A stretch of DNA of 64,000 nt from Thermoguttaceae bacterium (GTDB taxonomy: Bacteria > Planctomycetota > Planctomycetia > Pirellulales > Thermoguttaceae), in contig JARKPK010000098.1 in the NCBI GenBank assembly GCA_029975295.1, forward strand, positions 1-64,000, read 5' to 3'. The notes below the pieces were generated by a model. That model searched no databases. It saw nothing but the letters and a program-made list of their open reading frames with translations, and was not told the origin of the DNA. Shown piece by piece: positions 27,218 through 31,575 of this stretch; positions within the stretch are counted from its first letter, which is position 1, and the number at the start of each line of letters is the position of its first letter. The position numbers and the translations under genes are program-made.

Positions 27218-28897
27218 TTAACGCCTCATGGGCTGCGCGCTCGGAGCGCTGGGCGATAGCGAAGGCGGGGCGTACTGCTCGGCTGTTCGTGCGGCGGGCT
27301 CGCCCCGGGCGGGCGAGGCCATCATTGGGGCCGATGCAGGGCCGTCTTGATAGAAATGCGTGGTCTCTTCGCTGACCAATCTCGATGCCAGTTCGCGGCA
27401 GTGAACCTCGGCCCGAAACACATGGGCTCCGGCCGATTCGGCTCTGGCCCGAACGCGGAGCACCACCTCGGCCCCGGGGGCCACCGCCGCGATCGGTTGG
27501 AACACGACTTGTCCCGGCTGAATCCGATGCGGTCCGCCTTCAACGGCCACCGGCTCGATCCCGTTGGAGAAGAAAGCCAGCACCTCGACGTTCTCGGCTG
27601 TTTTGCTCCCGCGGTTCCGCACTTTCAACTCGTACACCGCTTCTTCGCCGACGAGAACCGGCCCCTGCGGATCCTTGACTTCCAATCGCAAATCGGCAAT
27701 GGCCTCCACGCGAGTGGTGGTGGTGGCCGCGGCTGTCAACTCGTCGTCGGCAGTGGTCGCCAATTCGAACCGATTTTGGCCCGGGGCGCTCAGAAGACAT
27801 CGCAGGTCGAACACCCTTTCCGTCCCGGCGGGCAACGCCTCGATGACCCACACCACGCGGCTGTCGCCCGCATCGAGACGAGCGCCATCGATGCCGGAGA
27901 GATATTTCGCCCCGGCGGGCAGTGCAAGCTGCATTCGCACTTGGCGGGCCGGCGCGTTGCCGGGATTCGCCACCCGAACGCGATACAAGGCCGCCGCATT
28001 GACGAACTGCACTTGCGGACCTTGCATCTCGACCTGGAGGGCGGCGCGGCGCACAAGCACCTTTTCCGACAGTTCCGCGCGCACTCCATGATCGGCCTGT
28101 GTTTTCACATGGATCAGCAACTCGCCCGTCTGGCGGGCAGTCAGTTCAATCTCAATAGCCCGCTCTTCGCCGGCTCTGAGGGTTCCCACGCGGTGTGTGG
28201 CCGGCGGATTGTCGCTCGATCCGATCGGCATGAGGGTGATCAGCACGTTCTCCGCATCGCCGGTGCCGGAGTTCATCAACCGCAACGCAAACAGTTCCTT
28301 GCGCCCGTAGAAGACCTCGCGCGGCCCGTCCATTTGCATGCTCAGCTTGGCCTCTTGCACCTCGATTTGCGCCTGAGCAGCCGCCGGTTGGTAATCCCAG
28401 CGAACGGCCAGGTCGAAGGGGCGGCTTTCGCGGGGAACCAACCGCAGGGTCAACCGTTCGCGACCGCCGGCCGGCAGAGTGCCGACACGCCACGACAACG
28501 GGCGGGCGGCCTCGGTGGCCTGGTCGTATTGAGCGCTGCCGACGCTGCTTTCAGCGCCGGCCAAGTCGGCCCACGCCGGAAGTTGAACATGAACAACCAC
28601 CCCGTCCGCTGAAACTTCGCCGCTGTTGACCAAATGCAGTTGATAAACCGCTTCCTTGCCCACGGTGATCTTGCGCGGACCCAAGGTTTCGACGCTGATC
28701 ACCGGACTTTTTCGCACCATGAGCAAATGATCGCCTGCGGCCGCGGGCGCAGCCGGTGCCGGAGTTCTCATTGCGTTCTGCGGCGAAACTGTGTCTGCCG
28801 CCGGCCGCGCCATTGGCGAGGCCAATGATTGAATCATTCGGCTGCGTGCCGACGATTCCTCTACGCCCGAGGCGCCCGTATGCGGCGGAGTTGCCAT
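27218..28897 (-). CDS. C-terminal part of a DUF11-type surface protein, separated by an in-frame amber codon
   Basis: A 559-codon frame with four repeats of about 110 residues, each a DUF11/CARDB-like beta-sandwich: ISVETLGPRKITVGKEAVYQ, MQMDGPREVFYGRKEL, VEMQGPQVQFVNAAALYRVR and LEVKDPQGPVLVGEEAVYEL. It has no signal peptide and no SD before its first ATG. The same frame continues upstream without a stop for 41 codons to a TAG at 29021-29023, which ends the secreted N-terminal half (29021-29737). Joined, the two halves would give a product of about 839 residues with a signal peptide, a disordered linker and the repeats. I therefore read it as the 3' part of an interrupted gene rather than an independent one. 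Confidence 0.75.
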   Translation of the reverse strand: MATPPHTGASGVEESSARSRMIQSLASPMARPAADTVSPQNAMRTPAPAAPAAAGDHLLMVRKSPVISVETLGPRKITVGKEAVYQLHLVNSGEVSADGVVVHVQLPAWADLAGAESSVGSAQYDQATEAARPLSWRVGTLPAGGRERLTLRLVPRESRPFDLAVRWDYQPAAAQAQIEVQEAKLSMQMDGPREVFYGRKELFALRLMNSGTGDAENVLITLMPIGSSDNPPATHRVGTLRAGEERAIEIELTARQTGELLIHVKTQADHGVRAELSEKVLVRRAALQVEMQGPQVQFVNAAALYRVRVANPGNAPARQVRMQLALPAGAKYLSGIDGARLDAGDSRVVWVIEALPAGTERVFDLRCLLSAPGQNRFELATTADDELTAAATTTTRVEAIADLRLEVKDPQGPVLVGEEAVYELKVRNRGSKTAENVEVLAFFSNGIEPVAVEGGPHRIQPGQVVFQPIAAVAPGAEVVLRVRARAESAGAHVFRAEVHCRELASRLVSEETTHFYQDGPASAPMMASPARGEPAARTAEQYAPPSLSPSAPSAQPMRR

Positions 28898-29020
28898 GGC
28901 CGGTGCGTGTTCGACGACGGAAGGCCGCGTAACCAGCGCACGCGCCGGCGTGGGGCCGGCGGCCCCCGTTTCGCGTCGCGGGGTCGGCTCGGCAGGGTTG
29001 CTGGCGTCGCGAGAAGGCCC

Positions 29021-29737
29021 CTAAGCGGCCACTGCCGGACCGGCAGCCGCGCCGTCCTCGCCCGTTTGTCGGAAATTCGTCATCCGTTGATGGAGCGGCC
29101 GGTTCGGCACTCCCATCGCAGGGATGTTTTCTTCCGCCGGAGTCTCCATGCCGGGCGAACCCGATGCGCGTCGGGCTGAAATTGATGGCAAGGTCGGAGT
29201 CCCTCGTTCGTACGCGCCCGATCGTCCGGTTCCGCTCGACGGAACGGAATTCGGTCCGGAACGGCGAAAACCGCCTTCCTGCGGCTCGTCCAAGTCACTG
29301 TCTCCGGCGGCGAGCGAACGATCGGCTGGATAGCGATTTGCCGGCGTCGAAGCGTTCGAGGGCGCGCCCAGCGGACGGCTCTCGCCGCGCGAATAGCCGT
29401 AATTGATCGCTGCGTTGGGCTCACGGTCGGCGCCTGCTTGGCCTGTTGCCGATGTGCGGGGAACACTCAAAATGCTTCCTGCGCGAGCCTGGGGCTGGGG
29501 TTGAACAGCTTCGGATCTGGGGTGCCCGACGGTCGCCGTCGGCTTGCCCGATTTCTCTTTGCCGCTGCTGTTAAACAGATTGCGTCCGAAGTTGTTGATG
29601 TCGTCAAGGATCGGCGTTTTCCGGGCCGAAGCCCGCGACGGCTCGGAGTAGTCGTAGTCTTCGTTTCCCCACGCGGGGAATCCGGCGCCAACGACCGCAC
29701 CGACGAGCACCACCAGACGAGCGAACTTCCGACACAT
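29021..29737 (-). CDS. N-terminal, signal-peptide half of the amber-split DUF11-type protein
   Basis: A 238-residue product starting at an ATG at 29737 with AGGTGG just upstream. A signal peptide (MCRKFARLVVLVGAVVGAGFPAWG) is followed by an acidic DYDYSEPS stretch, ILDDINNFGRNLFN, and a Ser/Pro/Gly/Arg-rich low-complexity region up to AAAGPAVAA and the TAG codon. On its own it has no folded domain, which is unusual. The reading frame after the TAG continues as GPSRDASNPAEPTPRR and on into the DUF11 repeats. Either a recent nonsense mutation, a sequencing or assembly error, or unusual amber decoding is responsible. If translated as drawn, a secreted disordered stub results. Confidence 0.72.
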   Translation of the reverse strand: MCRKFARLVVLVGAVVGAGFPAWGNEDYDYSEPSRASARKTPILDDINNFGRNLFNSSGKEKSGKPTATVGHPRSEAVQPQPQARAGSILSVPRTSATGQAGADREPNAAINYGYSRGESRPLGAPSNASTPANRYPADRSLAAGDSDLDEPQEGGFRRSGPNSVPSSGTGRSGAYERGTPTLPSISARRASGSPGMETPAEENIPAMGVPNRPLHQRMTNFRQTGEDGAAAGPAVAA

Positions 29738-30429: not shown

Positions 30430-31575
30430 CTATTCTTCGTCTTCCTCGTCTTCTTCATCGAAGTCATCGTCATCGTCATCCCAATCCTCGTCGTCGTCCC
30501 AATCCTCGTCGTCATCGTCCCAATCTTCGTCATCGAGGTCGTCGTCATCGTCCTCGTCGTCGTCCAACTCTTCCTCGTCGTCTTCGACTTCTTCCCAAGT
30601 GTCTTCGTCTTCGTCGTCGAAGTCGTCGTAGTCGTCGTCTTCGTCATCGAAGTCTTCGTCTTCGTCGTCGCCCTCTTCCTCGACGTCATCGTCTTCAAAT
30701 TCGTCGTCGCGCTTCGCGGCCCGTTCCGCCAACGCGACTGTCTGTTCGGCCGTCACGTCGAACGGGTCAAACGGTTGGTTTCGCAGGGTGTGTTTCACGT
30801 CAGTCTCCTCTTCCGCTAAAGGGGAATCCTGTATGGTCAATGACTGATTATCGGTTGCAGGCAAGGCTACAGACAATCTCGTCGTCCGAAAAACCTCGAC
30901 CTGCGGAAGCTCATCGAGATGGCGCAACCCGAACAACTGTAGAAACCTTCGCGTAGTCCCGTACAGCAACGGTCGGCCAAGTTCCTCTGCGCGCCCCACA
31001 ACGCGCACCAAATCGCGTTCGATCAATTGCCGCAGCACTTCGTCGCACTGAACGCCGCGGATCGATTCGATTTCTACTCGAAGCACCGGTTGACGATACG
31101 CAACGACTGCCAGCGTTTCCAGCACCGGGGCGGAAAATCGCAAGTCGTCGGCCGGACAAAGCCGCCGCAACCAGGGCGCAAACTTCGTCCTCGAAAGCAA
31201 CTGAAACCCGCCGGCCACCTCCTCGACTCGAAATGCCGAACCCTGCTGATCGAAAAATCGATTCAACGTTCGAACTAGTGTACGCGCTTTCGTGCCGTCC
31301 GCCAAGCCGGCCAATTGAGCCAACTTACGACTGCTCAACGGCGACCGGGCAAGCAACAGAACAGCCTCGATCCGCGCTAGTTCCGCCGACCGAAAATAGG
31401 GCCCTTTCGCCGAATCCGCCTCGGAATCGACACGGCCGAGGCGATCTATTGCCCACACATTACCGGAAAACCACCAAACTGGATTGGTCAGCCCCCCCAT
31501 GCCCGACATCGGGTAAACGTACCGTGTCGCCGGACTGATCGACCACAACGGATTACCCCACGCCCATTGCTTCAT
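30430..31575 (-). CDS. scpB: Segregation and condensation protein B with long acidic tail
   Basis: About 381 residues. The core at about 60-235 is ScpB: LARIEAVLLLARSPLSSRKLAQLAG, AFRVEEVAGGFQLLSR, VLETLAVVAYRQPVLRVEIESIRG and LIERDLVRVVGRAEELGRPLLYGTT form the paired winged-helix domains that bind ScpA in the SMC condensin complex, which compacts and segregates chromosomes. A linker at about 235-300 (FDPFDVTAEQTVALAERAAKR) leads into a tail of about 80 residues that is nearly all Asp/Glu, with repeated DEDW/DDDEDW and a few Phe and Tyr. Typical ScpB is about 180-280 residues. scpA is not adjacent. The N-terminal 50 residues are Trp-rich and unlike ScpB, so the true start is uncertain; an alternative ATG is at 31509. 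Confidence 0.85.
   Translation of the reverse strand: MKQWAWGNPLWSISPATRYVYPMSGMGGLTNPVWWFSGNVWAIDRLGRVDSEADSAKGPYFRSAELARIEAVLLLARSPLSSRKLAQLAGLADGTKARTLVRTLNRFFDQQGSAFRVEEVAGGFQLLSRTKFAPWLRRLCPADDLRFSAPVLETLAVVAYRQPVLRVEIESIRGVQCDEVLRQLIERDLVRVVGRAEELGRPLLYGTTRRFLQLFGLRHLDELPQVEVFRTTRLSVALPATDNQSLTIQDSPLAEEETDVKHTLRNQPFDPFDVTAEQTVALAERAAKRDDEFEDDDVEEEGDDEDEDFDDEDDDYDDFDDEDEDTWEEVEDDEEELDDDEDDDDDLDDEDWDDDDEDWDDDEDWDDDDDDFDEEDEEDEE

Follow-up and report, generated by a model that had tools for sequence, protein, structure and literature searches.

A predicted secreted DUF11-repeat gene of a planctomycete, interrupted in its assembly by a single in-frame amber codon

The closest described counterparts of the gene analysed here are the DUF11 (PF01345 / TIGR01451) repeat surface proteins, in which a signal peptide is followed by several Ig-like repeats of the DUF11 or CARDB type, and, with regard to its lesion, single-nonsense pseudogenes or null alleles, in which one in-frame stop breaks an otherwise intact frame while the orthologues are intact. 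A search of the literature on DUF11 in planctomycetes gave seven hits, with no paper directly on the predicted secreted repeat family among them. In the case of an archaeal surface protein, cell aggregation was judged not to require the DUF11 repeats (PMC6759345), and a passage of PMC3711429 treats DUF111, a family different from DUF11. The gene, located in a stretch of 64,000 nucleotides (the window), shares the arrangement of the DUF11 repeat surface proteins; however, it is broken in the assembly by one in-frame TAG, and the motifs of its N-terminal linker are those of a planctomycete subfamily. It likewise resembles a single-nonsense allele, but here the stop may also be a base error in the assembly.

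Translation of the minus strand from 29737 to 27218 yields a single frame of 839 codons followed by TAA (840 codons including the terminal stop), the lone internal stop of which is a TAG at codon 239 (29021-29023, minus strand). The first in-frame start codon past this stop is an ATG (28895-28897, minus strand), 42 codons 3' of the TAG and with no ATG, GTG or TTG in between, in agreement with a previous sequence-only reading that had placed the TAG and ATG 28897 in the same minus-strand frame, 42 codons apart and with no other stop. The 5' part of the gene (29024-29737, minus strand) opens with the signal-peptide-like MCRKFARLVVLVGAVVGAGFPAWGN, which is in register with the orthologues' leaders, and continues as a disordered linker in which the motifs ILDDINNFGRNLF, RAGSI and PLHQRMTNFRQ are conserved; no family in Pfam or NCBIfam was matched by this N-terminal part. 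The 3' part (27218-29020, minus strand) comprises the remaining linker, four Ig-like repeats, a C-terminal tail and the TAA. Three stretches of the repeat region correspond to DUF11 (PF01345, 1.1e-28), and one repeat to CARDB (PF07705), with the DUF11 domains scoring over the curated cut-offs (PF01345, 100.3 bits against 24.6; TIGR01451, 44.1 against 24). Judging from these domains, the protein is probably displayed on the surface of the cell or within its envelope. ATG 29737 is associated with a Shine-Dalgarno-like site of -9.0 kcal/mol, approximately within the best 5% of random 19-mers. At ATG 28897 a Shine-Dalgarno site is lacking, as the value of -2.8 kcal/mol does not even reach the random median (-3.7), and the product begun there is without a signal peptide; hence, a restart at this poor site would not yield a secreted protein, and rescue of the secreted protein in this manner is unlikely. 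The previous description of the two parts, the upstream one with a signal peptide but no folded domain and the downstream one with four DUF11-like repeats but neither signal peptide nor Shine-Dalgarno site, is borne out, with one of the repeats being CARDB. In the adjoining ScpB gene (30430-30750, minus strand), the C-terminal tail is long, of low complexity and nearly all acidic (D/E).

That the two parts belong together emerges from the relatives. The repeat part was matched in all 60 of the relatives' whole genomes counted, the window's own included and with some of the weaker matches being paralogues. Of the 119 genomes of the family, 85 contained a close match, with an E-value no greater than 1e-70. 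When the open frame was rebuilt at each locus fetched, all 40 orthologous loci without a contig-end cut on the 5' side, at least two of which duplicate others from a second collection, consisted of a single uninterrupted frame of 687-1070 residues, and at none of them were the halves encoded as separate genes. Shorter frames in the family survey (G013, G077, one G036 match and G034, where the gene is split over two contigs) resemble contig-edge cases, as confirmed by frame reconstruction for G013 and G077, and besides these apparent contig-edge cases the survey contained no further interrupted copy. Alignment of the joined protein with 22 orthologues, a comparison with related DUF11 proteins that the sequence-only reading had proposed, revealed that the leader and the motifs L.D.LD.FGR.LFGG, RAGSI and PLHERL..FRQS of the orthologues are shared by the upstream half in conserved order. 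Against a profile built solely from the N-terminal regions of 36 orthologues, the upstream half reaches 63 bits (8.6e-19), and 125 bits when the stretch past the stop is included, compared to a best score of 11 bits in 400 shuffles. As the two halves form one protein in relatives, the joined reading is beyond chance, and on these comparisons the two halves are a single ancestral gene, with a TAG that, of the genomes examined, only this one carries. The proposal of a secreted DUF11-type gene broken by a single amber codon is thereby supported by orthologues of the same family and order. Synteny around the orthologues is not conserved, save for single matches to the AraC-like, the SDR and one other window gene, and a scan of genome contigs for sister genomes returned four related loci, none near-identical to the window. 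Across the orthologues (L007-L035 and L091-L102), the motif set (L.D.LD.FGR.LF, RAGSI, PLHERL..FRQS) is conserved in an otherwise disordered linker. The predicted secreted protein with these N-terminal motifs occurs across the order, and the libraries searched name no function for it. Two further DUF11 repeat genes of the same genome, on contigs C74 (L002, L089) and C44 (L003, L090) and with frames of 818 and 838 residues, were rejected as second copies, being distant paralogues, and no second, intact copy of the gene was found in the assembly.

Several other readings of the interrupted frame were weighed against these data. Each half is an open frame with a possible start codon, as would be expected if the locus consisted of two separate genes, one for a small peptide that is secreted and the other for a DUF11 protein of the cytoplasm; however, relatives possess a single protein, the first half matches the N-termini of one-piece orthologues, and the second half lacks both a Shine-Dalgarno site and a signal peptide. 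With one-frame orthologues, an N-terminal profile match and a poor second start, two genes are rejected as the ancestral state, and we regard this arrangement as highly improbable. The frame is also open and coding both before and after the TAG, in line with genome-wide reading of TAG as an amino acid, which the sequence-only reading had listed as an option. This is contradicted by the presence of RF1 (460 bits, over the cut-off), by the lack of a CUA anticodon among the 43 tRNA genes of the genome, by the lack of a PylS match over the cut-off, and by TAG ending ordinary genes, among them uvrD (UvrD helicase), scpB (ScpB) and an M28 peptidase gene in the window. Of 166 long frames in 464 kb that look coding, 48 end in TAG. 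A weak PylS-family match, present likewise in 12 control genomes without an over-cut-off match, is probably another class II synthetase. Amber recoding was consequently rejected and is barely credible here. Programmed or leaky readthrough of the lone TAG, generating both a short secreted product and a long one with the repeats, would be compatible with the undecayed downstream part and with the location of the stop, since a disordered linker would accommodate an inserted residue. However, a stop conserved among relatives, as used to recognise readthrough, is absent, since no testable orthologue is interrupted, and no stable RNA fold is present 3' of the TAG, the RNA folding less stably than shuffles (z +1.5). 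We consider such readthrough quite improbable, and a lineage-specific variant, in which low-level readthrough or strain-level switching at the amber codon provides the short disordered secreted form next to the long repeat-bearing one, very improbable.

An ordinary single-nonsense allele or assembly error in the gene of a conserved, predicted secreted protein, rather than a change of the code, is instead very probably the explanation. Compared to 28 family orthologues (29 in all), the repeat region takes a middle rank by leave-one-out profile score and is free of gaps at well-occupied columns. Its changes at near-invariant sites, 4 of 79, lie in the range found for the other orthologues. As the repeat region is undecayed, the lesion must be recent, or not real; the nonsense mutation and the assembly error put forward in the sequence-only reading hence both stand, in contrast to its third option, amber recoding. 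A consensus or assembly error, with the gene intact in real cells, would agree with the undecayed remainder of the gene, the intact relatives and the draft state of the genome (190 contigs), as well as with the wide conservation of the gene at the level of both family and order, which makes a null allele somewhat unexpected. However, no other interrupted gene, i.e. no further in-frame stop between coding frames, was recognised in the 464 kb formed by the window and a further 400 kb, and the assembly is not visibly rich in errors of this kind, as far as can be judged from a codon-usage scan so insensitive that the N-terminal half of the 29737-27218 gene itself scores too low to enter its top 40. 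Candidates checked within the window, like the single one from elsewhere to pass the frame test, proved to be different adjacent genes or non-coding frames and were rejected as interrupted genes. Taken by itself, an assembly error is possible but unlikely; we estimate, by judgement and not by measurement, that a recent or strain-level nonsense mutation is about twice as probable as a base error.

Based on these comparisons, we propose that the locus represents one gene, conserved among Pirellulales-like planctomycetes, whose secreted product consists of a signal peptide followed by a long disordered linker and by four Ig-like repeats of the DUF11/CARDB type, and that it carries one in-frame TAG within the linker in the assembly. 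RF1 should halt translation at this codon, leaving a disordered fragment, secreted and 238 residues long, while no secreted product would contain the repeat domains, presumably amounting to loss of function of the repeat-protein gene. The lesion would then be recent, i.e. a young null allele, perhaps of the sampled strain only, or else a base error in the consensus.

In conclusion, the case matters little in itself. It serves as a warning that annotation will list the gene as two, one for a hypothetical secreted peptide and one for a DUF11 protein without a leader. Comparison with the relatives also outlines a predicted secreted family that is widely conserved in a planctomycete order, and that is characterised by a signal peptide, the RAGSI and PLHERL..FRQS motifs, and four Ig-like repeats.
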